64,000 nt of DNA from Symbiodinium sp. CCMP2592 (lineage: Eukaryota; Sar; Dinophyceae; Suessiales; Symbiodiniaceae). Below the pieces are notes generated by a model, which was not told where the DNA came from, did no database searches, and saw nothing but the letters and a program-made list of their open reading frames with translations. Where the stretch lies: assembly GCA_905221615.1 (NCBI GenBank), contig CAJNDT010006011.1, positions 372,001 to 436,000 on the forward strand. The letters run 5' to 3'. Positions 31,773 to 60,269 of the stretch are shown piece after piece (the stretch's first letter is position 1; every line of letters starts with the position of its first letter). Position numbers and translations under genes: made by a program.

Positions 31773-33457
31773 TAATCCCAGCAGCTTACAACAAGCTGGA
31801 GGCTGGGCACAACATGATCGGAGCTTGGATCCCCATGCTTTCAAATCGGGGCCTGAATGATTGCTACTCTTACCCCCTACAAATCCCTACAGTATGGTAT
31901 CTATACGTACTATACCCTCAACATCTAGCCTCGTGACTAAGACCCCAATTACCTGACAGGATGACCCAGGGTTCAACATGCCGGCAGGCTCTAAGTGTAG
32001 GACTTCTGCAGGCTCTAAGTGTGCTCCTATGTTCGATGGGCGGCATCGATCAAACCGTGATTCTCATTAGTGTGATACCAAACTAGGGGTGCCTTATTTT
32101 GGGGTCCTTATAAGAAGGATCCTACTATCTAGGGTACTATATTAGTAAACCTTTGGCGAGTACTTAAGACTCCTTTCCTTGGAAGCCTTACTGAAGACGG
32201 GGAGGGGGCTGTTTGAGGTTAATGTATAGGCCAACCGGGAAGTTCATTCTATACAAGTAGTCATATGCCAATGTATACACGGAATCATAAAGATACTGGT
32301 GAATCCAATAGACACATAAGTAAACCTGTACACACACACGTATAAACATAAATATATATATATATATATAAATATGTACACAACCAGCACACACACATAC
32401 ACATACATAAAACTACGAACATAAGTATAGATATGTATATGAAACTGAATCAAAAACACCATAGATAACTATATATATATATATGAACATACATAGATTT
32501 ATTGCTCCACTCTATTTGGTACCCTTCAAGGGGAATGGGATCCTTTAAGGGGTCTATAAGGGATCTACAGTAGGGTTCTATATTAGAGGCGAAAATTATT
32601 ACCTATACCAATTTAGGTTCCTCATTATGATTATAGTATAATGGGCACCAAAACCCTATTCAAAGTATAAAGGCCTCTATAGTAAGCCTCCTTTCCTCGG
32701 AAGACTTCGTGAATATTGGGCCCCATGTTCATCCTTGCGGGTGGGCGGGGTAATGAATCGCTACACCCGGGCCCCAAACCGAGGTCCTAAATCCTTCCAG
32801 GCAGGAGCCTAGTAGGATCCCTTAAAAAGGTTTAGGGTTTAGGAATTCCTGCTTTTCGAGGCTTCGAGGTTTTGGGGTGATAAGCAAAAAAGATCTAGAC
32901 TTTGGGGACCCAGGTTCGGGTTACCTAGACTAACCGAAGTATACTGGTTAACCGAAGTGTAGCTATCAAATTCTGCCTTTACTCTCCGCCATCCGCAACC
33001 TGAAATGAAGGTGTGCAGACTCAACCAATCAACCCTTGGCATCAAACCTAAACGGTAAACGATTAATTTTTCTGTCAATACAAATTAACCCGAACCGCAT
33101 TGTACACCGTAAACCTTAGTCATGATACCCTTAGCCCAGAACCTTTACCCTTTTGAAGCAGGAACTGGATTAGTGAGTGTCCAACCACACAAACGAGCAC
33201 ACTTTTTGGTCTGAGCCCAAGACGTCTGTCGTACAGGGTGCGTTCAGAACTAACACAAAAACTACGCTCGCATGAGGACATGTCAACACGGCGCTTCAAG
33301 ACAGGGAAATTTCACACCCGTCTTATCTGTAGTGTGACGTCCGAATCATGCTCGAATTTTGGCCGCTTTGGGCCAAGCCTACTTCACCGGATTATACCGG
33401 GAGCTTGCGCAGTCAACCGAGCCGAGTGCGGCGACTCAAGGCTCTAGGCTGAGTTCT
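31773..33457. other. Non-coding with MITE remnants and (TA)n; 3' flank of the retroelement
   Basis: A fragment of the ACAAG-flanked family at about 32085-32150 (GGATCCTACTATCTAGGGTACTATATTAG). (TA)n at 32348-32372 and 32470-32485. An inverted CTTAATAATTAG-family member at about 32594-32687. TTTAGGG units near 32830. 33100-33457 flanks the reverse transcriptase ORF; I could not find an LTR match to the 42-kb side. Confidence 0.45.
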
Positions 33458-36400
33458 TCAATCGCGAAGCGGAGTGCTTTCGGTACCCTCGGTATTCTGT
33501 GCGGCTTGCGCGGGCACATCGAGTACCTGTACGAGGTTGCGATCAATGCTGTGATTGATCAAAAGCGGTTTCATACTCTTAGTGAGACAATCCGCAAGTT
33601 GTAAATGCGTCGGTATCCATCTCAACTCATCGCCACAGGGATGGTACAGGACGTGCGTTAGCTCGTCCTCTTCCCAGAGTCCTTGGCGAAGTCCGGACAT
33701 CTCTATGGCAAGGCGTTTATCCTCGCAGGACTTTGGAATCGACGCTGTCAAGTGATCCGAAAGGGACCTGCAGTCCGTATACTGCAGGTGGAACATCGAT
33801 CTCTTGGCGACTTCTTCCCAGTTCTGTGACCGGGGCAGTTTGCCGAGTACTTCGAGTACTGCTGCTCGAATGCGGTCTCCATGCTCTATGGCATGCTGCA
33901 ACGAGTAAGCCTCACACTGCAGTGTGGCGCGACAAACCCGTTTCATGGTGGACGAGGAGAACGAAATGAGGTGCATCTCATGCGTTGGCGCGTTCTTGTC
34001 CACCGCCGACTGTGCGGAAGTGAGATAGTGGAAACGGCCTCTCTGCGACTTATGGTTCGCCTCTCCTGCAAAGGAGGCGTCGCAAAACGTGACGACCGCC
34101 AGCTCCCCTGTATTCCAGGGTAACTTAGCGCTGTACGTGATCGGCCTATCCGCATCTCCTAACGCCAGTGCTACTACGCGGTTTGCTTCACGGAGCGTAT
34201 CCACCGTGGCTGTCGTAACACGCTGCTGCAGGGCATTCACCCTATAGGCAAGATCAGGTCTCGTGGCGCGGGCCACCCAAGCCAGCGATCCTATGACGGA
34301 TCTCAGCGCTGTGCGCTGGCCATTCGAGACTGGAGTCGTGCCCTTTTCAGATTTATGTATATCGATCGGGCGAATTGCACGCGTGTTGTCCCTACAGTTT
34401 ATACTGATGGTCCCATCGGCGCTTTGCACATACTCGCGTCCGCAGAAACGGAACTTCTCAGTCTCTATGCGACCGATCTTAAACTTATCCAGCAGATTCT
34501 GGATAGCCGGCTCGCCTTCGGCGGTAGCAGCCCACAGGAAATCATCCACGTGGGTGCACAAGCAAGCGCACAAACGACCACCTTCTCCTGTAATATAGTA
34601 CAGGGCTGACAGAATTTGCGAGGCATTTAAGCCAAATTCTCGGCAACTCTCCTTTATACGGAGGTAAAGGTTCCGACCCGCGTCGGTGGTGCCGTACACG
34701 GGTACTCGGGCAATCATATACCCGGCTCGCTGAATCTCTGCATCGGGCACACCCTTAGGGTGTTTGGGAACCCGAAGAATGAGGAGGCGCTCAAGGGGTT
34801 TCCCTTGGAAGTATGCGTTCGTTATATCGGCTGCTTTGAGCCGCAGGGCCAACGAAACCGCCCATGAACACAGAAGGGCTATACCTTCCGGCTCGGCCGT
34901 GGGGCTGTCTGCCCTGATATCCTCCTCATTCGAGATATGCTCGAAGTTTCCACATGCGACCAAGCGTGCTTTCCACTTGGGAGTGTATGCTGCTGTCCCC
35001 TTTAGGTGTTCATTCTTATCGGTAAGAACCCATTTGGTGGGGATACACACGTGGCCAGCCTTTGTAAGCTCCTTAAACTCCTTGTCTGTGCAAGGGACCA
35101 CTGCGTTGAATTCAGTGTACTTCTGCCATTCAGTCTTCATGGCAGCATCCAGCCCCAGCTGTACCTCTACAGGGGCCTTATGGCAATCCAGGAGCGAGGC
35201 CATGTAGCCAACATCGACATTGGAGCCGAAGGCGTCTTCCCCATCAGGGGTGAGAGCAAAGGCCTTGGGTTCCGCCTCTCGACTATCCGAGGGCTCAACT
35301 GCTGGCACTGTCGTGCCAATCGCAGCTGTGTGCGATGCTGCTGCCAGTCCGTCGTCTTCCTCAGGAATGTAGTGACACGGATGGGCTTCTGGCAGTCCGT
35401 TAGCACGTATGTGCTCCGCAAGTTTCGAATGCTCGAGCCATATGTGCTGGGCGATATTTCGCCGATGGCATCGCCGCCAACTGGCCTCCGAACACAACAG
35501 AAGTATTCGGTGAAAGTCATCGTGAGCCTCGCTAACTATTCTAGCGATCGTACAGAGCCCTTGGTCTGTTTGCAGGTTGGCTTCAATCCCGCCCCGATTC
35601 CTGTTGCCTAACTCGGGGGCGTGACTGTACACAACCCCTTTTGCAAAGCATGTGGCAGAAAGCTCATCACAATTGTATTGTGGATGCCGAACGCTGTACG
35701 GGTGGCTTCTGCAATCTACGATTTCCTTAATCCCGTACTCGTGGATGCGCTCTAGGAACGTCTCGATGGGAAGATCAGAGTGACCCATGGTGTATATCCC
35801 ATCGCCTTTCCTGCCAAAGGTGTTGGGCGCATCCCTATATATGGGGTAGCCTAGATCCGACAAAAGCTGTATGTCATCTTTAGACAACTTACCGAGGTCA
35901 CTCACCGTGTATGCGGAGAGACTGTATCTTTCTCCTACAAACGGTGCGACCATGTGCACGTCCTTCGGGCGAAACTTAAGAACCTTGTTCTTAGTATCAT
36001 GGACGGTGCCATACATTGTCGTGTTTTGAATACGCACGGGAGTTGTACCCGTGGCTTCTTCCACCCAGAGGCCGCCTCCACGATACTCGCCCACACCTAT
36101 AGTGTAGTTATACGAGCCAGGAGTGTTCGCTAGGTCTCTATGGGCCTCTGCGCCTCTGTTGGTAAGCTGAACGCTACTCCACTGTGGAAGATGGTGACCG
36201 GCTTGCATACTGTGATGCAAGATGTAGTGGTTGAGGTACATGGCGAACGACGGTCTCTCGCGCGTTGGTCCAGAGACACCAACAAGACCACCGTGCCGAT
36301 ATACTCCCACCGCGAGGGCTATGCTCCCGGGATCTCCGTCATCTAGGAGCGGGCGCGTGTACGCCTCACGTCGGTCGCGGTCATAAGCGCGAAGGAGGGC

Positions 36401-36850
36401 CAGACACTCATCTGGAGAAAAACCCTGAGCATCTATCAGGCCTTTTGCCATGATTTCTACTTGATCAAGCTCTTCTGCAACTAGTGCGTCATCACGGCCT
36501 CCTACTGGCGATCGCGACCGGGCGGTTTCGCCCGTCTTATCTTTGGCGCGAAACCTTGCAGGGGTAGGTGGCGCTGGCATCGGTGTGCCGGGCATCATCG
36601 CTGGCGTCGATGGTGCTGGCATAGGCACATCGTGCGCGACTGCCGGTGTAAGCGGGGCAGCTGCAGCTACTGGACGTGGCGTCGCTGGTGCTGTGACCGG
36701 ATCCGCTACGCGCTCATCCTGGAACCTTTGTTCCGGCCCATGTACGATGGCTTCCGGAAGCACTGGTTCACCTGCCAAAACGCGGTGCGCTGCAACTTCG
36801 ATTTCATCACCCAATAGACCGGCGAAGTCAAAAAAGCAGGAAATAGTCAA
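33458..36850 (-). CDS. Copia-type pol: oxygenase-like + DUF488-like + reverse transcriptase + RNase H
   Basis: A 1,130-codon frame, second half of a retroelement polyprotein. Residues 200-316 show H237-x-D239, NYTIGVGEYRGGGLW, H299 and R308, the layout of 2OG-Fe(II) oxygenases. Residues 351-465 match the DUF488 pattern: YTMGHS, VDCRSHPYSVRHPQ, LLCSEASWRRCHR. RVT_2-type reverse transcriptase follows, with D675 (ADITNAYFQG) and HVDD at 767-770. Copia RNase H has D924, E980, D1026 and the ADCLTK box near D1087. The RT and RNase H catalytic residues are intact, so this part could be active. The first 14 codons lie inside the inserted TIR element; the true frame continues from the integrase ORF. 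No D[ST]G protease motif was found. Oxygenase and DUF488 calls are by motif only. Confidence 0.9.
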   Translation of the reverse strand: MTISCFFDFAGLLGDEIEVAAHRVLAGEPVLPEAIVHGPEQRFQDERVADPVTAPATPRPVAAAAPLTPAVAHDVPMPAPSTPAMMPGTPMPAPPTPARFRAKDKTGETARSRSPVGGRDDALVAEELDQVEIMAKGLIDAQGFSPDECLALLRAYDRDRREAYTRPLLDDGDPGSIALAVGVYRHGGLVGVSGPTRERPSFAMYLNHYILHHSMQAGHHLPQWSSVQLTNRGAEAHRDLANTPGSYNYTIGVGEYRGGGLWVEEATGTTPVRIQNTTMYGTVHDTKNKVLKFRPKDVHMVAPFVGERYSLSAYTVSDLGKLSKDDIQLLSDLGYPIYRDAPNTFGRKGDGIYTMGHSDLPIETFLERIHEYGIKEIVDCRSHPYSVRHPQYNCDELSATCFAKGVVYSHAPELGNRNRGGIEANLQTDQGLCTIARIVSEAHDDFHRILLLCSEASWRRCHRRNIAQHIWLEHSKLAEHIRANGLPEAHPCHYIPEEDDGLAAASHTAAIGTTVPAVEPSDSREAEPKAFALTPDGEDAFGSNVDVGYMASLLDCHKAPVEVQLGLDAAMKTEWQKYTEFNAVVPCTDKEFKELTKAGHVCIPTKWVLTDKNEHLKGTAAYTPKWKARLVACGNFEHISNEEDIRADSPTAEPEGIALLCSWAVSLALRLKAADITNAYFQGKPLERLLILRVPKHPKGVPDAEIQRAGYMIARVPVYGTTDAGRNLYLRIKESCREFGLNASQILSALYYITGEGGRLCACLCTHVDDFLWAATAEGEPAIQNLLDKFKIGRIETEKFRFCGREYVQSADGTISINCRDNTRAIRPIDIHKSEKGTTPVSNGQRTALRSVIGSLAWVARATRPDLAYRVNALQQRVTTATVDTLREANRVVALALGDADRPITYSAKLPWNTGELAVVTFCDASFAGEANHKSQRGRFHYLTSAQSAVDKNAPTHEMHLISFSSSTMKRVCRATLQCEAYSLQHAIEHGDRIRAAVLEVLGKLPRSQNWEEVAKRSMFHLQYTDCRSLSDHLTASIPKSCEDKRLAIEMSGLRQGLWEEDELTHVLYHPCGDELRWIPTHLQLADCLTKSMKPLLINHSIDRNLVQVLDVPAQAAQNTEGTESTPLRD

Positions 36851-37581
36851 TAGTAAAAATTTTGACTTCGGTTCATTTTGACTTTGACTTCGAAGTTAAA
36901 ACCGGGCGTAGAAAATAGTTAATTTGCGTGGCGTCAAAGTGACTTCGCGAAGCCAAAATTTTGACTATGAAGTAAACTCGGTGCAAAACTGCTAGAGGAA
37001 GTTTGGTGGAAGTTTCCTCTAAACTGCTTCTGAAACTGCTTCCAAACTGCTTCACCCTGAGTGGCAGTTTCAAGGGGCCGAAATCAAAACTTCCACTAAA
37101 CTGCTCTTCATGTTTTTGCATTATTTCCGGCAACGAATATGGGTACTTACATGCAAAAAACAATTCAAGTGTACATGGCAGACCGACACATATACGAACC
37201 CACCTGCACACATCTTCCACAACACACACACAAACAACAAACCTATATATACTTATGCACACAAACACACACAACAATGCACTTTCAAAGAGCAAAATCT
37301 CTGTAGCAGTTTCGGCCGGCCACAGAAGCAGTTTGGAAGCAGTTTCAGTAGCAGTTTCCCCTTCCCGAGTTTACTTCGAAGTCAAAATTTTGACTTCGAA
37401 GTAAACTCTGTTTTGACTTTGCGGGGGCGGCGTTTTAACTTCAAAGTAAACGCAAAAAAAATAACTATTGACTTCGAAGTTAACTAACATAGTCAATTCG
37501 CGTTTTGACTTGTTTATAAAAAAAGCTCTTTTTCTATGGAAAAGGGATTCGCTACTTTTCTGACTTCGCCGGTCTATTGGG
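36810..37581. mobile_element. 772-bp TIR element inserted in the Copia pol frame
   Basis: The ends are 21-bp perfect inverted repeats beginning CCCAATAGACCGGCG (36810-36830, 37561-37581), with imperfect pairing beyond. CA is directly repeated outside both ends (36808-36809, 37582-37583). Internal subterminal repeats of the palindrome ACTTCGAAGT and of AAACTGCTTC occur in both orientations. It has no coding capacity. The TAG inside its end stops the integrase ORF. Element plus one CA is 774 bp, a multiple of three, so the ORFs either side are in the same frame. CCC-ends with a 2-bp duplication could fit a non-autonomous CACTA-like element, which is inference. Confidence 0.85.
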
Positions 37582-40276
37582 CAGCTGGGCGCATCTTCCT
37601 AGCGTTCACAAGTACAGGGATATTCTCGTGTAATACCCAGTACGCATTCTCTGCCTCACGTCCTATGACGCGGCTAACCGTGGACCATACGACTCCTGGG
37701 CTGCCAGGGACGTTGTCCCGACGGTAGATAACTAAATCACCAACCTTATAATCAGTGTCTAGAGGAGCTGCATTACGCTGTAACGCTTTGGCCACCTTGC
37801 GGGAAGTCTCTAAATGGACAAAGGCCTTTTTGGCTTCCTGCCGTGCTCTATGCCGAATGTAGTATACACTCGTCTCATCATACTTGGTGAACAATGTACC
37901 AAGACTTTCGGATTCATCTAGCATGGAACCCGGTGTTCGAGGCTGCTTTCCCAACACGTGTCGTGCTGGACTAAACCCTTGGTGCCTACTAAGCTCGTTC
38001 TTAGTAGTAACACTCTCGGTAACGACCGCCTCCATCTCCTCGATATTCGAGGGCTGAGTCTCCTGCGCGACTTTTCTAATGATGGCCTTAGCAAGTCCAC
38101 CATGGCGTTTTCCAATAGTCTGCGGACTCTCGAGAGGGGCGTTCTTATGGATTATACCATGTTGTGCCAAATACTCTGAAAATTCTCCCCTAAAGTGCGT
38201 CCCTCTGTCAGTGGTGATGACTTTGGGATGTCCAGCCCAGCTGATCCACCTGTCAATCAGGCATTTCACACACTGGCGGGCACTTGGGTTACCACCCCCA
38301 GATTTCACGAGCACAACTTGCTGGAAACTGGTTCCCATGTCAACTATATTGACAGCAGTATAGCGATTTCCGAAGAAGTCCTTGACCTCTAGCGCATCCA
38401 TTCCTATCGTATGGTTGAATTCCTTTGGAAACACGCTATCACCTGCGACAGGATGGTGCCTGGGCACTGGAGCTGTGTCCAGGCAGACCTTACACTTGTA
38501 AAGTCCGGCAGCGGCGATGAAATCTTTGCTCGCCCGGGCCTGCTTCAGAACCTGTATCAGGACTGCGTTTGGCAGATGGCCAAACGATCGGTGCAGGCGC
38601 CTTATAGCTACCCGGACTCGTTGCGGTAACGATCTCCACGCCGCTCGGCGCTCTGCCTCTGTGTTCGGAGTTCCGGGAAACGGGAATTGTTCCAAAATGA
38701 GGCGTTCTCTCTCCTCGGGCGTCAGTGCGCCACCGGCATCGTCCATTCCATCAGGGACACCTCGCTGAGGCATCTCAGCGTCGGGCACCAGCTCTGCTTC
38801 GCTGATGTCCTCAGGATCTGTGTCCTGGGCGTCGCCGACAAAGCAAGTTCGGCTAAATGCGTTGATGTAGTACTCCTCAGAAATGGTACGACAAAGGTTC
38901 CAAAAGTCAGTACTATCCGTATCAACATAGCTACGGGGTATATACCCGTAAGACTCTGACCATGCTTGGAAGAGGTCCAAAGCCTTTCCAATCTCTGGGC
39001 CTATGCCTGAGATATGCATGTCTCCCCTCAAGGTAACAGTGTCCTCAAGCATTGGATAGCCGTTCGGGGTAACCAATATGATCGGAATGTTGAGGGTATC
39101 GGCTACACACTCAAGCTCCAAACACAACTCCTCTGTGGAAGTCTCAAACCTGGCAACCACGAGGCCCGGTGGCCCGTTCTGCCTCTCGTTGATCACGCTC
39201 GCGAGGACCTGTGCCGAGGGTTCATGCAATCTAATCAGGTGATCAGCTTCTCGCATGGCAGCGTTGTACACGATTGCCTTTAAGACTTCGTCTCCCGCTA
39301 CCATTTCGGTAAGGCTTGAGGTGAGGTACTTGGACTGGGCCTTGCTAAGCTTCTTTAGGCTAGCGGCTGAGGGCCCAGAGGCTGCGCTGCTACTGTGGGG
39401 CAGGTCTTCGGGAGGATCAGGGCTTGGAAAAGAAATCTGGCTGGCTTGTCCTACCCACTCCCCACTGCAGACGGCCATGTATGCTGCATCGCGCTCTGCT
39501 CCGTCCTCCTCCATGGGTGAAACGTCACCCTCCGGGACTGTGCCCGGGCTGGCAGAGGTGGCAATGCGCGACGCCCGCGGGTCTGTGCCCGGGATATACA
39601 CTGCACTCAAGGCATCTGTGTCCTCGATCTGATGCGGCATCGTGGCCGCGTCGAACGCCAAGGGAAAGACCCAAAGCGCGACGTATGCGCCGTCTTCCGT
39701 CGGCTCCTGCGTCGGGCAGGCCTGCTCGGCTCCACCGGTTTCGGTGGGCAACTTCTCGGAGTCTGACCCCGGCGGAAAGCATGCGCCTTCATACGTCCAA
39801 CTGGTGCCGTCGGAGGGGTCCATATGGGAAAACAAATATCCTATGGGATCTATGTCCCGTAGCTTGCCCGTCGGCTTATACGAACGGCCTGTGTGGCGGG
39901 TGACCACAGTGCACTTTATGTTGTGCCGTTCGCTGAGCTCATGGTGATTTTTGTCACCAGCCCAGAAGCGCCTCGGTGCATATGGACCGATCCAGCACGC
40001 TGGCGCCTGCTTCTCGCACATCACCTCGTATAGGGCGGTCAGCACACCATCAGGAAAGTCCTGGAACACGATGCGCCTGTTCCACCCGAAACCTGTGTCG
40101 GGGCTGAGTCCAATGGCACCAACGTCGATGGCCAGGATCCTCTCGTCGATTTCGACGAGCTTGCCTTGCCCTGGGGGCTTCGGGAACTGACGACGGAATT
40201 CTGCCCATTCCGCGTCATTCCACTCGGCCGACGGCCTATCGCCGTGGAAGTACCACCATGACTCGTTTGCTGTCAT
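37574..40276 (-). CDS. Copia-type gag-pre-integrase and integrase ORF
   Basis: A 900-codon frame. An HHCC zinc module (H562, H567, C595, C598) precedes an integrase core with D627 (GMDALEV) and D690 (TTDRGTHF). The third catalytic residue, expected about 35 residues after D690 in a G-x-x-E-R-H-G-G context, is missing: the sequence reads IGKRHGG, two residues short. A basic C-terminal chromatin-binding-like tail follows. Residues 1-300 are acidic and unrecognised. The ATG overlaps the stop of the upstream ORF as ATGA. The frame ends in a TAG supplied by the inserted TIR element; the original frame ran on into the reverse transcriptase ORF. Integrase before reverse transcriptase defines the Copia order. 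Confidence 0.9.
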   Translation of the reverse strand: MTANESWWYFHGDRPSAEWNDAEWAEFRRQFPKPPGQGKLVEIDERILAIDVGAIGLSPDTGFGWNRRIVFQDFPDGVLTALYEVMCEKQAPACWIGPYAPRRFWAGDKNHHELSERHNIKCTVVTRHTGRSYKPTGKLRDIDPIGYLFSHMDPSDGTSWTYEGACFPPGSDSEKLPTETGGAEQACPTQEPTEDGAYVALWVFPLAFDAATMPHQIEDTDALSAVYIPGTDPRASRIATSASPGTVPEGDVSPMEEDGAERDAAYMAVCSGEWVGQASQISFPSPDPPEDLPHSSSAASGPSAASLKKLSKAQSKYLTSSLTEMVAGDEVLKAIVYNAAMREADHLIRLHEPSAQVLASVINERQNGPPGLVVARFETSTEELCLELECVADTLNIPIILVTPNGYPMLEDTVTLRGDMHISGIGPEIGKALDLFQAWSESYGYIPRSYVDTDSTDFWNLCRTISEEYYINAFSRTCFVGDAQDTDPEDISEAELVPDAEMPQRGVPDGMDDAGGALTPEERERLILEQFPFPGTPNTEAERRAAWRSLPQRVRVAIRRLHRSFGHLPNAVLIQVLKQARASKDFIAAAGLYKCKVCLDTAPVPRHHPVAGDSVFPKEFNHTIGMDALEVKDFFGNRYTAVNIVDMGTSFQQVVLVKSGGGNPSARQCVKCLIDRWISWAGHPKVITTDRGTHFRGEFSEYLAQHGIIHKNAPLESPQTIGKRHGGLAKAIIRKVAQETQPSNIEEMEAVVTESVTTKNELSRHQGFSPARHVLGKQPRTPGSMLDESESLGTLFTKYDETSVYYIRHRARQEAKKAFVHLETSRKVAKALQRNAAPLDTDYKVGDLVIYRRDNVPGSPGVVWSTVSRVIGREAENAYWVLHENIPVLVNARKMRPAAQ

Positions 40277-40920
40277 GGGGCGGTGCGGATTCTCGCGCTC
40301 TGGAAACCTATGGTAACCAGCACTGCCTCGGAAGCGCGGTGGCTCCGGCGGTTCAGGCGGGCGCCTGCTGCCTCCAAGGCTGCTCCTGGGTCACCTGCAC
40401 CTGTGCCGTCGTCGTACTCGACCTCGTCGTACACACTGTGGGGTGCAGCCTTGCCTTTGCCCTTGCCTTTGTCGGGCTCATACTCCACCTCCGGCCGTGC
40501 AGAGGGGCGAGGATTCGTGCGCTCACGCTCGGGAGCTGTGTCCCGGCCTGCACGAATGCGCTCGCGCTCGGGAGCTGTGTCCCGATCCGCACGGTCGTCG
40601 CCTGGGTCGGCGCGGACGCGACCCCAACGGGAGGTGCGTTGGCGTGTCGGAGCCTCGGACCTATCCCGAGGTCTGGATTCCATTCGCCGCCTTTCTCGGG
40701 TGCGGTCACGGCGATGGCCCCTGCTCGAGGAGGAACTATCCCTCCGCCTGCGACGCGATCTGGAGCGGCGTGTGAGCCTCTGAAGCTCCGCCTCGGCCCT
40801 ATCGGCCCGGTGTTCCGCGTCTTCTGCCCTCTCGCGCATGTCCTGCAGCCGGTCATACGCATTATCGCGCTGCCGCTTCACATTGCTGAGGGCCTCTCTC
40901 AAGTCACTTATAGTGCTTTC
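40273..40920 (-). CDS. Gag-like coiled-coil and SR/RD-rich basic protein
   Basis: The open frame runs from 40920 to a TGA at 40273-40275, about 215 codons without an ATG near its start. It opens with a heptad-like coiled coil (ALSNVKRQRDNAYDRLQDM, then repeated RAED/RADRAEAEL). It then has an Arg/Ser/Asp-rich block (SRSRRRRRDSSSSSRGHRRD) and acidic DEVEYDDG. Such basic tracts usually bind nucleic acid in gag proteins. It overlaps the end of the upstream ORF by 17 nt in the +1 frame and overlaps the integrase ATG by ATGA. Translation probably depends on frameshifting or on coupling to the neighbouring ORFs; a plain sequencing indel is the alternative. Confidence 0.65.
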   Translation of the reverse strand, partial: ESTISDLREALSNVKRQRDNAYDRLQDMRERAEDAEHRADRAEAELQRLTRRSRSRRRRRDSSSSSRGHRRDRTRERRRMESRPRDRSEAPTRQRTSRWGRVRADPGDDRADRDTAPERERIRAGRDTAPERERTNPRPSARPEVEYEPDKGKGKGKAAPHSVYDEVEYDDGTGAGDPGAALEAAGARLNRRSHRASEAVLVTIGFQSARIRTAP

Positions 40921-42130
40921 TTACCAGCGATTCGCATCGGTGAGGTCGTGGACCTCGGCCTCGAGCCTGCGAATCCGAGGCGACGACCCTGTCGGCGTCG
41001 CTGCGCGGTCCTGTGCCCCACCGGACTTTGCCGGCGGCGGTGTCGGTGTGTCCTTCGGTCCCATATATGGGGGCCGCTCCGCCCTTGGCTGACGCACCTA
41101 CGCTAGAACTAGCAGGGTTAGGACCCGAGCTAAAGGTAACCGAAGGCAAGCGTCCTCCAGGGGCTGTGCCCTGTGCGCGATTCATCGCCGCAGTGAGCGA
41201 GTTGGGGTCGAACTTGGCCACATACGATGTATGTGTCTTGCCGACCAGCCCCATGCGGGTTGCAGCCTGGTACGCGGTTTCGCCTGCCAGGGGAGGCCTA
41301 TCAAGGGGACCTACCCCCGTCACCGGTGCCTGTATGCGGCCCTCTGCAAGCAGGCGTTCATGAAACCGCTCAGCATATGTAGGCTGATCATCAGGGCGTG
41401 CACACTGCGGCTCCACGACAAGGATGCACTCATTGTCTTCCGGTCCGTCTATGCGGACGGCGTCGACGAAGGACTTCGTAAGATCCTCAACCTCCTGGGC
41501 TATGCCAGGGGCGCGGTGCAAACACTTGGGGCACTGCCCTTTGCACGCTTTGCTGCCCATGAACGGCCAACTGTTCGCTGCACTCATGTGAGTGAGGCTG
41601 ACGGAGCAATCCGGCACAAGCTCCAAAAGCGTCGCATGGGTAAGGATACCCGCCGCAACAGATCTATGTCTGTTGGCCTTGCAAACAACATGCACGGCTA
41701 TGGACCGAATCCCAGCATCCTTGGCGTCGAGGATGTTCGCCAAGATGTGCCTGACGTGGGCAATCAAATTGGGATGGTCTGCGTGCTCCCGAATTATATC
41801 GGGGTTTGACCCAACATGCTTTGTGCGGTCGCGCTGTTCATCGTTGCGCTGCTGGGCTTCTGCAGGCGTCAGATCGTCTTTGCGATCGTCCTTTAGCCAC
41901 ACCATGTCCAACATCACCAGCATATAGCTGGTGGCAGACGCATACGTCGTGGTTGCATGCGTTTCCATCTCTTCGTGCTGTGCGAAGAGCTCGGCTGCTG
42001 TCCACTTCCCTCTGACGCGTTGCAGCCAGGCATGGTGCTCATAGCCCCAGGTAAAAACATCAATAATGATGTCCGGGTTCGCTATGTCCCCCGCATAATA
42101 CGGCTGCAAGGCCAAATCCGGATTATACAC
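40904..42130 (-). CDS. First retroelement ORF with RapZ-C-like motif
   Basis: A 408-codon frame at the 5' end of the Copia-type element. Residues 110-165 resemble the RapZ C-terminal domain: an N-terminal stretch of helices, the strand SIAVHVVC150, then KANR-H155-R156-S157-V158. That is the C-x4-HRSV signature (also readable as C-x5-R-S, as in protein tyrosine phosphatases). A Cys cluster follows (C196, C200, C203). The C-terminal half is disordered and Pro/Gly-rich. The first codon used here is GTG; the frame stays open upstream through 42138 into the neighbouring duplicated unit, so the real start is unknown. Role in the element is unknown; a gag-position protein is the default. The RapZ likeness is motif-level inference. 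Confidence 0.7.
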   Translation of the reverse strand: MYNPDLALQPYYAGDIANPDIIIDVFTWGYEHHAWLQRVRGKWTAAELFAQHEEMETHATTTYASATSYMLVMLDMVWLKDDRKDDLTPAEAQQRNDEQRDRTKHVGSNPDIIREHADHPNLIAHVRHILANILDAKDAGIRSIAVHVVCKANRHRSVAAGILTHATLLELVPDCSVSLTHMSAANSWPFMGSKACKGQCPKCLHRAPGIAQEVEDLTKSFVDAVRIDGPEDNECILVVEPQCARPDDQPTYAERFHERLLAEGRIQAPVTGVGPLDRPPLAGETAYQAATRMGLVGKTHTSYVAKFDPNSLTAAMNRAQGTAPGGRLPSVTFSSGPNPASSSVGASAKGGAAPIYGTEGHTDTAAGKVRWGTGPRSDADRVVASDSQARGRGPRPHRCESLVRKHYK

Positions 42131-42634
42131 GGATGCTGCTTTAATGGACCGGGTTTTAGCTAATGACTTGGAAGGATTACAGAGGATGACAAGCTGGTAG
42201 TAACCTGTTAGTAAGCTAGTGGTAAGCCAGTAGTAAACTGTTATAAGAGTGATACAAGGTTATAGAAGTTATGTGATCTTATATAAAAGTTATATTTTTT
42301 ATGGTGTTTACAGAAAAGGTTATGATACGTTATGTAAGTGGTTAAGCATAAAAAATATAAGTCCTATAGTGGTTATAACAGTGATTGCATAACCACTTAT
42401 CAATGTATTATAAGCGTCATTTCCTTGCATGACGCTGTGTAAATCTTTGAGTGCCAATGTGAAACAGAAGCAAGTTGCGAGTACGACATGCAGTGTTTTT
42501 CTGATGGACATTCCGGGATTTAATTTCTAATTCCGCTTGCGAATTGAAGTCCATTTGGTTGCCGCATGAATTAAAGGGCTCAAAGTCCAGGAAGCATGCA
42601 CAGGTCATGGCGGCAGTGCATTAGCCATATATAG

Positions 42635-42655
42635 CCCCGGAGGCGTGCTCCGGGG
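42635..42655 (+). promoter_or_regulatory. Stem-loop in leader, copy 1
   Basis: A perfect 8-bp stem CCCCGGAG / CTCCGGGG with a GCGTG loop, just after TATATAG and just before an ATG. The same hairpin is at 44871-44891 in copy 2. It sits about 150 nt upstream of the 511-codon ORF. Function unknown; another 7-bp stem (GCGTCAT/ATGACGC) is at 42414-42435. Confidence 0.5.
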
Positions 42656-42808
42656 ACATGTGCAAGATTTACCAGCAGCACAGGAGCAGCAGCAGCAGCA
42701 GCAAGCAAAAGTCACACACAGGCTGCAGGCCAAGAAGCATGTCAGCATCACTATTGGTAATAGGACGCCGCAGAGCACGTAAGTCTAGCGAAGCTAGCGG
42801 TTGGCGGC

Positions 42809-44344
42809 ATGGAGCCAGGCACGCGTGCAGAAGTCGCGGCCTTGTTGGAGAGCTCTCAGGAGCTGGGGACCAAGGTGGAAAAAGTGGTGCAGGTGCTGAC
42901 GAGCGCAGGTCTTGCGTACAAGCGAAGGGAGCCTGTGACGGCTATGCTCGTGCATCCAAAAAATCGCGGAGGGCTGATGGTGCAACCACACGATGCACAT
43001 GCCAATGGCAGAGTCATGCTTGAGGCCGGGCTGCGGCGGGAGCTCCTGGAAGCTGGCAGCGTTTGCTTCGAGATGAGCAGCGATGCCACGTTGCGCGAGT
43101 CGCAGTACGCGGCCAACGAGCGCGTAGTCGCAGCTGCAGAGGGAATGCTGGCGCCCGTGACCCGAACGGAACGGTTTCTCACCGTGGCGGGGTCGCACAC
43201 AGCGGCCTTTTTGAAGGCGACCGTGACAGGCGCACGTGCCGCGGACGGTAGCAGCCTGGGCGCCCTTGTGGCGGGGCGCGAGCCGGACCACCCGGTGAAC
43301 GTGCTACTTCGCGACGGCTGGGAATGGTTGATCATTTCCTCTTCTGTTGAGGCGAGCTTTCCAGAGCTGGCGACTTCATTCCAGCAGTCTTACAACACGG
43401 CGCACGCTGCTGCGAAGGTGCTGAGTGAGGTGGAGTGCATGCAGACTTTTGCAAGTCTGTTCATGCAGAAGAGAGCACATGGCAGCTTGACCGAGGAAGA
43501 GCGCAAGGACGCTGCCCTGGAGCAGCTCTTGCTGTCGAAACCAGCGTGCGCGAAATACGCGGGTAGCTTGGCGCAGTACGTTTTGTTGTACGGCGGGGGA
43601 GAAGGTGAGCGGTTCCCGCTGGTCGAGTTTTTGGCTTGCTTTAGCAAGGTCTTCGGAGCATCTATGATGCTGGGGGAGGATTTCGTGCGCGCAGTGGTCG
43701 CGACAGAAGTGAAGGGGCAACTTCTGCCGATGGTGAGGTGCGCCTTGCTGGCATGCCAGCTTACGGCGCCGGTGCAGAAATGCAGGGATGGGTTTGCGCG
43801 ACTTCTCTTGTCGAGTGACGCAGAGAAGCTACGCGGGGCGGCGCTCGCGAAGCGGGTGGCGGAGACCGAGGAGTGTCTGGCGCGCGCTTGGCCGCTGTAC
43901 CTGCAGGCGGCAGCTTTGGCGGAGAATGGGGAGCCTCTGAAGGCTATGGGCCGCTTGATGGTGCGAGCCGTGCTCCTGCTACTGCAGAAGCAAAAGGCTG
44001 GAAGGGAGGCGCGGGTCTACGCGAACTTGGCGGAGGTGAGCGCGGTGTTCGCGAAGGAGCTGCAGGGCGAGGGTGCGCCTGCAGCGGCGGCGTCCGGGAC
44101 CAAACGCTCGAAGCAGCAGCCGGAGAGAGCTCTGAGCTTGAAGGAGTGCGCCGACCCGGCGGTCGTGGCACTGCAGGGGAACAAGCACCTGATGCTGGGA
44201 GAGCGGTATACCAACAAGGAGCACGCTGCACAAGTCTTCCGCTTGGTGAGCTTGGACGCTGCGGGCGCGGTCTTTCGCGGGCAGCGCTTGTTCGAGCCGG
44301 AGCTCGAGGTCATCGAGGCCTGCATGCAAGGTTTATATATATAG
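42809..44344 (+). pseudogene. Upstream copy of the 511-codon exon, lacking its second exon
   Basis: Encodes the same 511-aa frame as copy 2, with motifs VHPKNRGGLMVQPHDAH and DGWEWLIISS. The likely donor (CTCGAG|GTCATC, intron from 44309) is present. However, the duplication joins the unit to a new leader at 44375, so the downstream exon found after copy 2 is absent. Unless the intron is retained (stop at 44342-44344), the product would be truncated or spliced into the next copy. See 45045-47201 for the family description. Confidence 0.6.
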
Positions 44345-44374
44345 ACTGCACGCAGGAGCTTTATAGATGACTTA

Positions 44375-46610
44375 CTTTAATGGACCGGGTTTTAGCTAAT
44401 GACTTGGAAGGATTACAGAGGATGACAAGCTGGTAGTAACGTGTTAGTAAGCTAGTGGTAAGCCAGTAGTAAACTGTTATAAGAGTGATACAAGGTTATA
44501 GAAGTTATGTGATCTTATATAAAAGTTATATTTTTTATGGTGTTTACAGAAAAGGTTATGATACGTTATGTAAGTGGTTAAGCATAAAAAATATAAGTCC
44601 TATAGTGGTTATAACAGTGATTGCATAACCACTTATCAATGTATTATAAGCGTCATTTCCTTGCATGACGCTGTGTAAATCTTTGAGTGCCAATGTGAAA
44701 CAGAAGCAAGTTGCGAGTACGACATGCAGTGTTTTTCTGATGGACATTCCGGGATTTAATTTCTAATTCCGCTTGCGAATTGAAGTCCATTTGGTTGCCG
44801 CATGAATTAAAGGGCTCAAAGTCCAGGAAGCATGCACAGGTCATGGCGGCAGTGCATTAGCCATATATAGCCCCGGAGGCGTGCTCCGGGGACATGTGCA
44901 AGATTTACCAGCAGCACAGGAGCAGCAGCAGCAGCAGCAAGCAAAAGTCACACACAGGCTGCAGGCCAAGAAGCATGTCAGCATCACTATTGGTAATAGG
45001 ACGCCGCAGAGCACGTAAGTCTAGCGAAGCTAGCGGTTGGCGGCATGGAGCCAGGCACGCGTGCAGAAGTCGCGGCCTTGTTGGAGAGCTCTCAGGAGCT
45101 GGGGACCAAGGTGGAAAAAGTGGTGCAGGTGCTGACGAGCGCAGGTCTTGCGTACAAGCGAAGGGAGCCTGTGACGGCTATGCTCGTGCATCCAAAAAAT
45201 CGCGGAGGGCTGATGGTGCAACCGCACGATGCACATGCCAATGGCAGAGTCATGCTTGAGGCCGGGCTGCGGCGGGAGCTCCTGGAAGCTGGCAGCGTTT
45301 GCTTCGAGATGAGCAGCGATGCCACGTTGCGCGAGTCGCAGTACGCGGCCAACGAGCGCGTAGTCGCAGCTGCAGAGGGAATGCTGGCGCCCGTGACCCG
45401 AACGGAACGGTTTCTCACCGTGGCGGGGTCGCACACAGCGGCCTTTTTGAAGGCGACCGTGACAGGCGCACGTGCCGCGGACGGTAGCAGCCTGGGCGCC
45501 CTTGTGGCGGGGCGCGAGCCGGACCACCCGGTGAACGTGCTACTTCGCGACGGCTGGGAATGGTTGATCATTTCCTCTTCTGTTGAGGCGAGCTTTCCAG
45601 AGCTGGCGACTTCATTCCAGCAGTCTTACAACACGGCGCACGCTGCTGCGAAGGTGCTGAGTGAGGTGGAGTGCATGCAGACTTTTGCAAGTCTGTTCAT
45701 GCAGAAGAGAGCACATGGCAGCTTGACCGAGGAAGAGCGCAAGGACGCTGCCCTGGAGCAGCTCTTGCTGTCGAAACCAGCGTGCGCGAAATACGCGGGT
45801 AGCTTGGCGCAGTACGTTTTGTTGTACGGCGGGGGAGAAGGTGAGCGGTTCCCGCTGGTCGAGTTTTTGGCTTGCTTTAGCAAGGTCTTCGGAGCATCTA
45901 TGATGCTGGGGGAGGATTTCGTGCGCGCAGTGGTCGCGACAGAAGTGAAGGGGCAACTTCTGCCGATGGTGAGGTGCGCCTTGCTGGCATGCCAGCTTAC
46001 GGCGCCGGTGCAGAAATGCAGGGATGGGTTTGCGCGACTTCTCTTGTCGAGTGACGCAGAGAAGCTACGCGGGGCGGCGCTCGCGAAGCGGGTGGCGGAG
46101 ACCGAGGAGTGTCTGGCGCGCGCTTGGCCGCTGTACCTGCAGGCGGCAGCTTTGGCGGAGAATGGGGAGCCTCTGAAGGCTATGGGCCGCTTGATGGTGC
46201 GAGCCGTGCTCCTGCTACTGCAGAAGCAAAAGGCTGGAAGGGAGGCGCGGGTCTACGCGAACTTGGCGGAGGTGAGCGCGGTGTTCGCGAAGGAGCTGCA
46301 GGGCGAGGGTGCGCCTGCAGCGGCGGCGTCCGGGACCAAACGCTCGAAGCAGCAGCCGGAGAGAGCTCTGAGCTTGAAGGAGTGCGCCGACCCGGCGGTC
46401 GTGGCACTGCAGGGGAACAAGCACCTGATGCTGGGAGAGCGGTATACCAACAAGGAGCACGCTGCACAAGTCTTCCGCTTGGTGAGCTTGGACGCTGCGG
46501 GCGCGGTCTTTCGCGGGCAGCGCTTGTTCGAGCCGGAGCTCGAGGTCATCGAGGCCTGCATGCAAGGTTTATATATATAGACTGCACGCAGGAGCTTTAT
46601 AGATGACTTA
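44375..46610 (+). repeat. Tandem 2,236-bp duplication, copy 2
   Basis: Near-identical to 42139-44374. At its right edge GATGACTTA passes into (AT)n (46611-46632) and then the second exon, which is probably the ancestral arrangement. Confidence 0.97.
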
Positions 46611-48551: not shown

Positions 48552-50711
48552 TCACTTGGGCAGCAAGCACTCCAGCAGGGCCTGTTTCGCCTGCACAGCA
48601 TTTCTTTTAAGCAAAGATTGTTCTGCCGTTCGGTGGCTTACTTTGCGCAGGATGCGCACACAGTGTTTGATATGATCCTCGTCCATATAACAGTTGTCCC
48701 ACCCCGGCGATCGTTTGCTCGGTCGCTTGTCTCTCAGCATGTGGATCAAATGATGAAATTTTGGTCGCAGCTTGAAGTAGTACTCCCCTCTGTCGCATGC
48801 TATTGTGGCCAGTGCACAATAGGAGCTCAGGAAAACATCGCCCACCACACGTAGGTGTCGTTGCTGCTCCATCGTCAGAAACACACCGGAACTCATGGCA
48901 CAGCGGCTCAACTCGTCGGCAGCCCAAACCATGCCAAGCAAGCCTCCGTATGGCCCCGGCAATGGGGACTCCTCCAGCTTCTTCAGCACGAATGACATAA
49001 AGGTCGAGGCATCCGCAGCCTTGCAATGTAGTTCCGGGCAGCCACGATTCCAGTGAAGCGAGCTTTTCCGAAGCCGCTTCATTGCCACAGTTTTTCCAGT
49101 CGCAGCTGCGTAGATCTTCAGATCTTTGAAGAGTTCATTTAGCCGCTTTGGAATCGTGGGTCCTCCATAAATCGATGTGTCTCTGCACATCAGTTTTATG
49201 GCACTTCCAAGGATGTCTCGTGCCACCCCCAGCGACCACGTGTGCATCCAGTCCACTTGCACCATTTGAAGATCAAACCCATCGATAAATGCAAAAGCCG
49301 GACGGTCCACCCAGGGCTCATGGGAATATTCGGTCGTTGTCCAGGGAGCATCAACATTGATGTCGGTGTACAGCATGCCCGGATCGGATCTCGATGCCAA
49401 ACACTTGAAGCATACCTATATAGCTGCGAAGTCAAAAGAAAGGTTTTGACCAACACGACCCAAACTTTGATTTCAATCCAAACCCTTAGAACAACAAAAA
49501 AAATCTAATGAGTTGTGAAGACCTGGGCCTTAAATCTAAGGGTTTCGGTTTTGGCTGGTACAGTCCTGCGGGGAGCTCGCGTTGCGAACGAAGTTGAAGC
49601 ATTGGGTCAAATATTTGAGATCTCCACGAAAAGCCACCGGAACAAAATAATAGGTCTCCTCCGATGCAACTGTATATGAGGTGGGCTCATAGGTTCTTAT
49701 TTTGTAGCGAGTCTTACACCACAAACAAATATTTATTTGTAAAGAAACTATGCGTACACCCGCCCGAAACCTAATATAAGGACCTAGTAAAAACCCTACA
49801 TCATGGAGGTATATCATAGGGTTTAGGGTTTCGGGATTTGCCGGGCAAGAATCTCCAGAGCTGCATGGTAAGCCTTTATGCATGACTTCGTTGATGTCCT
49901 TGACCACTGCAGCGTTCAGGTGCTGGAGGGTCTCATTGGTTTTGCCATTCACAAAGTATCTGCTGGCCAGAAGCGAGTAGATCATATAACGAGATGCTTT
50001 GCTGTGCTCACGGAATACCGACAGGTCAGGAGTCCTTAGACAAATATATAGTTGGGTTTGACTTAATCCAGGCTACACCGGCTTCATACAAGATCCTTCA
50101 ATTCAACTTGTGATTTAAGCTTGCAGCTGCAGCGGCCACGAAACCACCATCCAGGAGCTGTTATTGAGGGTCCCCTCGTCACCCCAAAGGACTATGGGGA
50201 TTGTGTAGCTCCAAAGCTTTCGCTTGTTCTTCAGCCAATGGTCAGGGAAGTCAAGCAGCAGTTGGGCCCAGTAAGAATGCAGATCAGCGCTCGATGGGTA
50301 CATGGACTCCACGAAATCCTCCTCGAGCAGTGCCCTTGCCTGAAGTCAAGTCGTGGCTTCCGGACGGGTTTGGAGGTTTCGATTTTCTTGAACTTATACC
50401 AGGGATTTGCAATCAAGGGTAGGGTCGTTGTGGACAAACGAACAATTGAACTTAATTTAGGGTAGACTTCGCGATGAAGTGCTATTTGGAAAACTAACAT
50501 TCATGCACAAACATGCTGGCCATGTCAGAATCCGAAACACCATAGAGGATGGCAGCACAACTGGGCATTGTTCAATGCAGGGTTCCTCGTCCTCACCACG
50601 GATGACTGGTGCAGCCACATAGGTCACGTCGGTATTGAAGGCATACCCAGCTTTGCAAACTCTTCTAATGTATTCAGGCTCCCGCAGTGCACGGGTGTCG
50701 TACCCATGCAA
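48552..50711 (-). CDS. Multi-exon CACTA/tnp2 (Plavaka)-like transposase gene
   Basis: Exons on the minus strand, approximate: 50711-50510 (CPVVLPSSMVF); 50355-50115 (IPIVLWGDEGTLNNSSW); 50025-49870 (helical, ends CATAAAG|GC donor); 49712-49560 (VAFRGDLKYLTQCFNF); 49412-48552. The last, 282 codons, holds CFKC at its start, then VDWMHTWSLGVARDIL, KFHHLIHMLRDK and DNCYMDEDHIKHC, ending LECLLPK. The order of acidic GD blocks, C-x2-C and D-x-MH-x4-LGV is that of tnp2/Plavaka transposases (known family plan); assignment is inference. The plus-strand gene at 1.9-4.1 kb matches exon by exon. Introns carry CCCTAAA units. Catalytic residues cannot be fixed by eye, so activity is unknown; it may be a gene-like expanded family rather than an active transposon. 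Confidence 0.6.
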
Positions 50712-56207: not shown

Positions 56208-57995
56208 TCACGGAGCACCACCTTCATCATCATCGCCCCCGTCATCGTCTTCCAGGGGCTCACCATCGTTCTTTTCCTCGTCTCCCTGTGGCTCATCCTC
56301 CTCGAGTTCCTCGTCTCCTTGTGGATCATCCTCCTCGTCTCCCTGTGGCTCATCCTCCTCGGGTTCCTTGTCTCCCTGTGGCTCATCCTCCTCGGGTTCC
56401 TTGTCTCCCTGTGGCTCCTCCTCGTCCTGCTGCTGCTCCTTTGGTGGGGCAGGATCCACTAAGGTTTCCGGAAACGGATCCTCCTCCTCCTTGCCTTTGC
56501 TTGCCGATCTGGCCTCACTCACCCTGTCGATTTCATCCAGCATTGCCTGCACTTCCGCCAACCTCTCAGCATCCGAATCAGCGGCGACGGTGTCCTCATC
56601 CTGTGCTAGCTTTCGCCTTTTGGTGGGCTTGCTCTTGCTGCTCAAACGGACTTTTGGTGGCGTTTCGATGCTCTTGCTGGGTGACGGATTGCCTTTGTTG
56701 TGCTTGGCCTTCTTTGCTGACTTTGCACTCTGCGGCTGCTTGGGCTCTTCCTCATCCTCTGGCTCCTCCTCGGGAACCGCTGGCTTGGGCTCCTCATCCT
56801 CTGGCTCCTCCTCGGGAACCGCTTCAGCCTTTCGAGCCTTCACCTTTGCACCTCGCCGGGGCTTCGGCTCCTCATCCTCTGGCTCCTCCTCGGGAACCGC
56901 TTCAGCCTTTCGAGCCTTCGCCTTCGCTCGCCGGGGCTTGGGCTCCTCATCCTCTGGCTCCTCCTCGGGAACCGCTGCGGCCTTTCGAGCCTTCGCCTTT
57001 GCACCTCGCCGGGGCTTCGGCTCCTCATCCTCTGATGGCTCCTCCTGGGGAACCGCTTCAGCCTTTCGAGCCTTCGCCTTTGCACGCCGGGGCTTGGGAT
57101 CCTCATCCTTTGATGGCTCCTCCTCGGGAACCGCTTCGGGCTTTCGAGCCTTCGCCTTTGCACGCCGGGGCTTGGGCTCCTCATCCTCTGATGGCTCCTC
57201 CTGGGGAACCGCTTCGGGCTTTCGAGCCTTCGCCTTTGCACCTCGCCGGGGCTTGGGCTCCTCATCCTCTGATGGCTCCTCCTGGGGAACCGCTTCGGGC
57301 TTTCGAGCCTTCGCCTTTGCACGCCGGGGCTTGGCCTCCTCATCCTCTGATGGCTCCTCCTCGGGAACCGCTTCGGCCTTTCGCGCTTTCTTGCTCTTTC
57401 CACGACCACCCTGCTTGGAATCCTCAGCTGGCTCCTCAGCCTTCCTGGCCTTATCGGCTTTGTTCTTGGGCTTGGTAGCACGGGCTTTGGGGGCAATTGT
57501 CACACCCTTTGGCTCATCCTCCTCAGTGTCCTGCGGCTCCTCTTCCTCTGCAAGGTGGGTGCAAGCCTTTGATCTGCGAAGGGGTTCGGCCTTTTCCTTT
57601 TTATTCTCCTTCACCTTCGGGGTCTTGGCCGTGGCTGCGCTGGCTGCTGCTGCTGCTGCTGCCTGCTGTTCTCGCAAGCCTTCTCGAACATTCTCAAAGA
57701 CTACTACAGCATCAGCATAGGTCAAACGCTCGGATTTCATAAGCTCCTCTAAGCTCATCGTATCTTCACCCGAAAGCCTCTCAGTCAAAGCGATCGGTGG
57801 CTCATCCGGGATTCCGTGAGGATTGGCGTGGGAGGCAATCGATAGCTTAGAGCTACATGCACTCGAGGAACTCTTGTTGCCCTTGGCTTTGGTCTTCTCC
57901 CTCTCCTCGGCCTTATGCACCTTCAAAGCTTTGATGCCATCACGAACAAGCTTGCCCCTCTTGAGGGCTTCCACCAAGCCCTTGTCCCGGGCCAT
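56208..57995 (-). CDS. 595-aa protein with 26-aa Lys/Arg-Glu repeats
   Basis: ATG at 57993-57995 lies just after a TTTTGTGCAG acceptor, so a 5' UTR intron or earlier exon is likely. The stop is at 56208. The N-terminus MARDKGLVEALKRGKLVRDG and the region TMSLEELMKSERLTYADAVVV look globular or helical. The centre has seven full and one partial copies of a 26-residue unit, EAVPxEEPSEDEEPKPRR(GA)KAKARK. Later copies lose the Ser to give EEPEDEEPKPRR. The last 90 residues are a second, acidic repeat (EPQGDKEPEEDE). Alternating basic and acidic blocks suggest a chromatin- or RNA-associated, disordered protein (inference); no known family fits. Long open frames on the opposite strand are by-products of the repeat. 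Confidence 0.7.
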   Translation of the reverse strand: MARDKGLVEALKRGKLVRDGIKALKVHKAEEREKTKAKGNKSSSSACSSKLSIASHANPHGIPDEPPIALTERLSGEDTMSLEELMKSERLTYADAVVVFENVREGLREQQAAAAAAASAATAKTPKVKENKKEKAEPLRRSKACTHLAEEEEPQDTEEDEPKGVTIAPKARATKPKNKADKARKAEEPAEDSKQGGRGKSKKARKAEAVPEEEPSEDEEAKPRRAKAKARKPEAVPQEEPSEDEEPKPRRGAKAKARKPEAVPQEEPSEDEEPKPRRAKAKARKPEAVPEEEPSKDEDPKPRRAKAKARKAEAVPQEEPSEDEEPKPRRGAKAKARKAAAVPEEEPEDEEPKPRRAKAKARKAEAVPEEEPEDEEPKPRRGAKVKARKAEAVPEEEPEDEEPKPAVPEEEPEDEEEPKQPQSAKSAKKAKHNKGNPSPSKSIETPPKVRLSSKSKPTKRRKLAQDEDTVAADSDAERLAEVQAMLDEIDRVSEARSASKGKEEEDPFPETLVDPAPPKEQQQDEEEPQGDKEPEEDEPQGDKEPEEDEPQGDEEDDPQGDEELEEDEPQGDEEKNDGEPLEDDDGGDDDEGGAP

Positions 57996-58196
57996 GCTGC
58001 ACAAAAGCAGGTCTTACACACACACACGTATGATCGAGCCTGATATAGCACAGAAGAAACATGTTTAGGTTGTGAAAAAAATTCCCACGCAGAATCACGC
58101 ATAATAGCGCTCATTAGCTCGATTATAACGTGCATTGCACGCTTTTTCACGCTGCCCTTTTGTAGGGGCTGCACAGGCCAGTTGCGAATTGGCACC

Positions 58197-59402: not shown

Positions 59403-60269
59403 GATGGGATACCTTAGGAATGATCAATATGGCAATTAGGCCACGAGTCCTGTGTAATTCCTGCAGAGCCATTTAGTATGCAGCAGAGGAGCAGCCATCA
59501 GCTCGAATTGTAGCCCATACCATAAACCAAGGGTTATCCTCAACGGCACCCAGAAATCACGACACACAGGCACCTGGAGCCTCGACCTATATAGATCTGC
59601 CTGGTGGCCAGCTGCAAACCATTCCGTGGAATCAATCATCGGGCCTTGGCATACTTTGTGTGGGAGGAATATATTGATTAAGTCAAATAATCAGGCTATA
59701 TGGTCTAGCTACTCGGGTTGTGGTTTCCTCTATATGTTGTTGTATTATTGTACATCCAATATAAGCCAAGACTCAGGGGTCCGAGGAAGGACTGTGATTT
59801 CTGAACAACGAAAGGGTCTCGTGATTTGAGCGCAGGGGCTTCGGGATGTCTAGTGGGGCCTTACCTAGGCATGATTGTGCGAGTATCCAAGACCCACACG
59901 AACGACAATGGTTTGGTGATATGTACCTTAAGAGGTAGGGACACTAAATAGTATAGTGGTAGCTATGATCGAGGTTCGGACGGAGAACCTTGATTTTGGG
60001 ATAGCTAGAAGGTATTATAAGGATGGGATAGTCGGGGAAGGACAGTGATTTAGTGAGTTCCTAAAGGCTTTGGGAAGGACCCTGATTTCGTGATGGTTCC
60101 AATAATAAGGGGTTTGGGAAGGAGCCTGATTATGAGGTTGCAGAGTTTGGGGGAAGGACCGTGAATTCGTGAATTTCTAGGGGTTTGGGATAAGGGACCG
60201 TGAATCCGTGAATTTCCTAGGGTTTGGGGGAAGGACCGTGATTTCGTGAAAAATGCAAGGGTTCCACGA
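59403..60269. repeat. Direct repeat of about 867 bp, copy B
   Basis: Same order and orientation as copy A, 1.2 kb away. It ends at the same GGGTTCCACGA and abuts the perfect palindrome at 60269. Confidence 0.95.

Follow-up and report, generated by a model that had tools for sequence, protein, structure and literature searches.

A lineage of Copia-type LTR retrotransposons in the genome of Symbiodinium sp. CCMP2592 carries a DUF488 domain inside Pol, between the integrase and the reverse transcriptase (RT), and its diverged copies hold this domain under purifying selection. Taken jointly, we regard this anatomy and this selection as very nearly certain.

The domain and its element

The window (i.e., the whole 64,000-nucleotide stretch analysed) includes an open reading frame (ORF 33458-36850, minus strand) of which positions 35456-35800 encode residues 465-351. 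Within residues 351-465, the translation displays YTMGHS, VDCRSHPYSVRHPQ, APELG and LLCSEASWRRCHR in the order given by the first-pass annotation, and the DUF488 signature that it had read from these motifs was confirmed by the profile search that it proposed: PF04343 matched the whole ORF at 47.6 bits (E 3.2e-12) and the DUF488 fragment alone at 55.2 bits (E 1.4e-14), for a curated Pfam cut-off of 22.2 bits. A custom profile, for which 76 proteins of <260 aa were selected among 83 loci (80 bacterial, 2 plasmid, 1 phage), scored 88.4 bits against the window ORF (E 2.2e-26) and at least 100 bits against each of three database relatives (P0003, P0004 and P0005), and 0 of 1,000 shuffled fragments reached E 10 with it. 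The match is far above chance. The best PADLOC match to the domain was PDC-M45B, a candidate defence family (68 bits, E 1.7e-19). PF22751 (DUF488-N3a, the “active” subclade) was absent among matches to the window ORF (E up to 1) and to the window DUF488 fragment (E up to 10), and was matched by two of the eight members of set A6 (best E 0.015). Searches with the domain returned nothing better than E 0.017 from PHROGs, no credible match from PDB sequences, and no match at E 0.001 from BFVD, whose weak rows include giant-virus phosphatases.

The proposed placement between an integrase and a Copia RT also holds, as RVT_2 is found in DUF488's own frame (residues 599-839, 47.5 bits by Pfam) and the integrase core in the preceding ORF. 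The features are as follows:

33151..42138, minus strand: partial copy of a Copia-type LTR retrotransposon (alignment limits against fetched copies)
33151..33316, minus strand: 3' LTR, ~166 bp (same sequence upstream of the ORF in copies C158, locus L134, and C3990, locus L126)
33458..36808, minus strand: upstream domain, DUF488, linker, RT and RNase H, residues 15-1130 (open frame)
33581..34153, minus strand: RNase H region (by position and motifs)
34334..35056, minus strand: Copia RT, RVT_2 (Pfam PF07727, E 2.2e-12, over cut-off)
35447..35767, minus strand: DUF488 domain, residues 362-468 (Pfam PF04343; the genome profile search gives the same place, G000:C5149:407447-407767)
35816..36253, minus strand: conserved domain with a 2OG-oxygenase-like motif, H237xD239...H299...R308xS310 (by motif)
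36813..37581, no strand: 769-bp insert with terminal inverted repeats, splitting pol (inverted repeat I8)
37582..40276, minus strand: integrase part of pol, rve core at 38138-38416 (Pfam rve E 9.4e-5, below cut-off)
40904..42130, minus strand: gag-like ORF, 5' truncated (ORF list and copy alignment)
42139..46610, no strand: two 2,236-bp tandem units, 99.9% identical, bounding the element copy (repeat comparison)

The element is ~12 kb in size and ordered as gag-like part, integrase, conserved upstream domain, DUF488, linker, RT and RNase H. RVT_2 thus lies 3' of the integrase as expected for Copia, the integrase match itself being below cut-off, and an IS481 transposase model also matched the integrase part below its own cut-off (E 3.9e-11). 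Pfam gave no match over the RNase H region 33581..34153, whose motifs we take to be those of RNase H. A weak match to the RapZ C-terminal domain was seen in the gag-like part of both the window, which there includes the stretch CKANRHRSVA, and L118:3003-4502 (E 0.011 and 0.022, below cut-off); this RapZ-like region may be another borrowed domain.

On the 3' side, seven of the eight fetched long copies that reach past the ORF stop end at 33147-33152 (C224 ends at 33271), and on the 5' side the alignment of seven fetched copies ends at 42132-42138, where the tandem array starts. The window copy shows its 3' LTR only; LTR pairs flanked by 5-bp target duplications (GGGGT and ACTAT, read by eye) were found in C158 and C3990, with pair identities of 166/167 and 166/166. 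Protein identity to the window ORF was 97-99% in 27 of 30 fetched copies. The ORF match begins at residue 14 or 15 in 29 of these 30 and at residue 37 in one, and residues 1-14 were therefore assigned to the insert. This MITE-like insert (36813-37581) is missing in 9 of 10 fetched long copies, whose alignment crosses the site without a break; the remaining one, C36, is rearranged there. The gag part of the window copy also breaks frame. Because of its 5' truncation at 42138, the insert in pol and this gag frame change, the window copy is dead.

Around the element, the tandem units are arranged head-to-tail, each with a 511-aa plus-strand ORF, and the retroelement is cut exactly at the array edge; we take the units (42139-46610) to resemble a dinoflagellate tandem gene array. 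Elsewhere, the window includes a direct repeat of ~867 bp at 98.3% identity (58197-59056 and 59403-60269), a 282-aa minus-strand ORF (48555-49400) without Pfam match, in which DWMHTWSLG is presumably transposase-like, and a 598-aa ORF (56208-58004) of charged repeats derived from a 78-bp tandem repeat.

Copies, relatives and origin

To evaluate the distribution of the domain in its own genome, we searched the 1.1-Gb assembly (5,383 contigs), which yielded at least 150 DUF488 matches (the best 150 of 165 at first look). Every one of these 150 was over the Pfam cut-off and none had an internal stop, with one spanning only half of the profile, and 24 sit in frames of ≥3,900 aa; as the list consists of the best-scoring candidates, such proportions are biased towards intact copies. 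Three copies have open frames of 3,906, 3,914 and 3,929 aa up to the edge of the fetched stretch (3,939, 3,935 and 3,932 aa in the genome search). The suggestion that DUF488 would be translated with pol is consistent with these long frames for the family, but fails for the window copy, which, as its reading frames stand, could not make the polyprotein. With a 3-kb DNA query, the best 40 of 183 places were all at ≥98% identity, the window itself included. Given so many near-identical copies, the DUF488-bearing family is abundant and recently active.

DUF488 was also carried by more distant copies in this genome, at 80-94% (L085, L084, L099) and 54-84% (C1273) protein identity. C1273 had been considered as a DUF488-free element (upstream domain 73% identical, DUF488 not in the scored list), but the fetched piece has the domain, in two frames. 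For the first 20 of at least 150 upstream-domain matches, compared by eye, DUF488 was located 48 bases downstream on the same strand in 20 out of 20. Loose first-look counts (RVT_2, 5,766; upstream domain, 4,432; DUF488, 165) suggest that most Copia elements of the genome would be without DUF488. No host DUF488 gene was found among five lower-scoring places fetched out of 150: three continue into the element RT, and in the other two the match to the element ends at residues 514 and 534.

Beyond this genome, a homology search (residues 190-500 plus P0001) recovered 23 proteins, of which P0001, P0003-P0012 and P0019 appear from their sequences to belong to elements, and the remaining 11 resemble free-standing DUF488 proteins (four seen in full, six more in alignment). 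The relatives from other database contigs are 47-67% identical, with P0003 and P0004 spanning both the upstream domain and DUF488 at 67%, P0004 extending to the RT edge, and P0019 joining a damaged DUF488 to an RT. Since the best identity of these relatives to the fetched copies is 59-81% (stretches >60 residues), they are probably other subfamilies or species. The same insertion, which the first-pass annotation had proposed to look for in further elements, is thus recurrent in its own genome and occurs in other database contigs as well. No relative was found in three scans of viral contigs, and phages provided a single DUF488 record (35% identity) and plasmids 102 records, all <60%.

A 94-row tree groups all nine element rows in a single clade (support 100/100) on a stem of 2.46, and one acquisition, before the known subfamilies split, would most simply account for this clade. 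The sister of this clade is without support (44/84), and no row is known as a free-standing eukaryotic DUF488 protein. Of the earlier idea that a mobile element had captured a cellular or bacterial domain, the capture is supported (the insertion being recurrent and under selection), and the bacterial or cellular source stays tentative, given this long stem and its lack of a supported sister.

Selection on the domain

Codon rows were compared by pairwise Nei-Gojobori estimates, using 37 copies with the window among them (fewer for three segments: RNase H, 7; integrase, 11; linker, 33). Among the most diverged pairs (pS >0.3), which share branches and are thus not independent, pooled dN/dS was 0.033 for DUF488 (198 pairs), 0.031 for RNase H (13), 0.102 for the upstream domain (69), 0.148 for RT (45), 0.174 for the integrase core (30, including the damaged copy C1335) and 0.083 for the linker (122), which is itself constrained and hence no neutral yardstick. 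At pS 0.1-0.3, the ratios were 0.064 for DUF488, 0.110 for RT, 0.058 for RNase H, 0.105 for the upstream domain, 0.116 for the linker and 0.039 for the integrase; at pS 0.02-0.1, 0.102 for DUF488, 0.052 for RT, 0.070 for the upstream domain and 0.140 for the linker; and for near-identical pairs 0.312, 0.094, 0.226 and 0.366, respectively. Compared with RT, DUF488 is less constrained in young copies, and in old ones it is constrained as tightly as RNase H: diverged copies hold it under purifying selection, and the surviving lineages kept the domain. As selection kept DUF488 intact, the domain probably helps the element multiply.

Synonymous divergence from the window differed between segments for L128/L129, L120/L121, L099 and L130/L131 (0.66-1.0 in DUF488 vs. 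0.14-0.33 in RT), as if segments had been exchanged between subfamilies.

Possible function and significance

We find reasonably likely, if well short of assured, the overall picture of a Copia lineage that acquired the DUF488 domain of its Pol once and keeps it, best read as a nucleic-acid or nucleotide enzyme aiding replication. DUF488 would be made together with Pol and would enter the virus-like particle alongside RT and RNase H, where, as an enzyme of PTP-like fold, it could act on phosphate groups of nucleic acids or nucleotides, or else on damaged or modified bases, and would thereby let the RNA or cDNA survive host surveillance or be better copied. It would then count as an accessory domain, comparable to DNMT and AlkB in other retrotransposons though with a different fold. 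Taken by itself, the proposal that the domain acts enzymatically on nucleic acid or nucleotides is tentative, and we give it slightly less than even weight.

The residues of the domain bear on this question in two ways. The would-be active-site residues G356, H357, D379, R381, C453, E455 and R460-R463 are present in the window copy, and the conserved Cys is found in six of seven element rows. However, a structural or protein-binding module without catalysis (a spacer, a partner of integrase or RT, or a host-factor site), which we consider the strongest alternative although clearly the less probable one, would fit with the changes at 8 of the 23 strongly conserved DUF488 columns (≥95%; 15 are kept in the window), with the shorter loop after LGG, and with the missing Cys in P0001. 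G416 and R418 are likewise changed relative to other DUF488 sequences, as is W459, replaced by R. Against such a module stand the retained active-site residues and a dN/dS in diverged pairs as low as that of RNase H.

A narrower alternative is a PTP-like phosphatase whose substrates would be nucleotides or the 5' ends of RNA, with C453-x5-R459 as a gained signature. The Arg at C+6 occurs in 7/7 element rows vs. Trp in 97% of other DUF488 rows, so that C-x5-R is displayed by six of the seven, window included. The predicted model of the domain resembles a PTP-like fold: PTP folds head the structure-match list, which also includes an RNA 5'-phosphatase (1yn9) and a capping-complex chain (8p4c). 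Yet no His precedes the Cys, and the catalytic loop of PTP phosphatases is HCx5R with a PTP-loop Gly, both of which (His and Gly) the element is without; moreover, the fold comes from a predicted model and a fold shows no function, and we judge this phosphatase reading improbable. Finally, one could invoke a chance likeness, a misassembly or contamination by bacteria, given that DUF488 was detected in 6 of 14 control genomes, and that the six named are all bacterial or archaeal; this reading is refuted by at least 150 matches in one genome with dinoflagellate spliced leaders (217 + 212, i.e., 429 exact copies of a 21-base motif that we take to be this leader, vs. 0 + 0 for the reversed control) and by the same domain order in other contigs.

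Returning to DUF488 as a nucleic-acid or nucleotide enzyme, bacterial DUF488 loci have a same-strand neighbour within 60 bases in 26 of 80 cases (29 genes), for which the Pfam families listed (25 of 38) include UDG in three and LigD primase-polymerase in one, the rest being scattered; UDG did not prove to be a constant neighbour. One plasmid copy lies beside CRISPR genes and another near an SOS-response-associated peptidase. On the Allochromatium tepidum plasmid (L001), two adjacent DUF488 genes were observed in a CRISPR neighbourhood (cas1, csx16, csm6). Two further sources describe a CTP-binding ParB-fold protein fused to DUF488-HTH (PMC12704722) and a DUF488 gene located with genes for plasmid replication and repair (PMC9674854). 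Together with the PADLOC match, these neighbourhoods and fusions hint weakly that DUF488 proteins work on nucleic acids or nucleotides and take part in conflict, and they indicate no specific reaction.

Directly upstream of DUF488, residues 200-345 are conserved across subfamilies and display HxD...H...RxS, which we take to be the pattern of 2OG-Fe(II) oxygenases. The motif residues were matched in P0003, P0004 and P0009, with departures in P0012 (E for D, distal part unaligned), L099 and P0006 (R for H299) and P0008 (H for R308). This domain had no credible Pfam or PDB profile match and a structure model at pLDDT 32, and the oxygenase-like reading, made on the motif alone, is suggestive only. 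Dinoflagellate DNA is rich in 5-hydroxymethyluracil. It is tempting to speculate, as a long shot, that an upstream oxygenase oxidising bases and a DUF488 processing or protecting them would make up a captured cassette for modifying or repairing nucleic acid, through which the element would write host-like chemistry into its own cDNA or strip host marks before integration. If so, DUF488 would be a new type of enzyme, serving a retroelement in DNA processing or in counter-defence, and the element would be a route to learn DUF488 function.

The element shares with the Copia superfamily its integrase followed by RT (RVT_2) and RNase H, its LTRs and its 5-bp target duplication, and differs from it in that two additional domains, DUF488 and a conserved neighbour, separate its integrase from its RT. 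With the bacterial and archaeal DUF488 family (PF04343; PDC-M45B) it has the profile match in common, but its own version is a domain within a retrotransposon polyprotein, on a long tree stem. According to PMC5890265, Symbiodinium DIRS and LINE elements carry DNA methyltransferases, and abundant Symbiodinium Copia elements are described there without any DNMT domain; the former are likewise dinoflagellate retrotransposons with an added enzyme domain under purifying selection (inside the Pol ORF for DIRS), but the domain and the retrotransposon class are different. Orchid Ty3/Gypsy elements with an AlkB m6A demethylase, as presented in PMC9289625, are similarly LTR retrotransposons that captured an enzyme of nucleic acids, in their case a 2OG oxygenase, but they belong to Gypsy and have AlkB in a separate ORF; in the 121 angiosperm genomes covered there, 15 unusual domains were all in Gypsy-type, not Copia-type, elements. 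Both the DNMT (PMC5890265) and the AlkB (PMC9289625) elements show that nucleic-acid enzymes are indeed acquired by retrotransposons. In the open-licence literature, with transposon papers judged by title, we found no report of DUF488 in dinoflagellates or retroelements; DUF488 is not named in PMC10853773, passages of PMC6338049 yield nothing on it, and PMC5890265 and PMC9289625 are not among the open-licence papers containing the word.

The few retrotransposons that carry added enzymes have brought to light pathways of host surveillance (DNA methylation, m6A). In the present case, a widespread prokaryotic family of obscure function is found inside the Pol of a high-copy, recently active Copia lineage and under selection, which offers a natural experiment both on DUF488 function and on what dinoflagellate retroelements must withstand.
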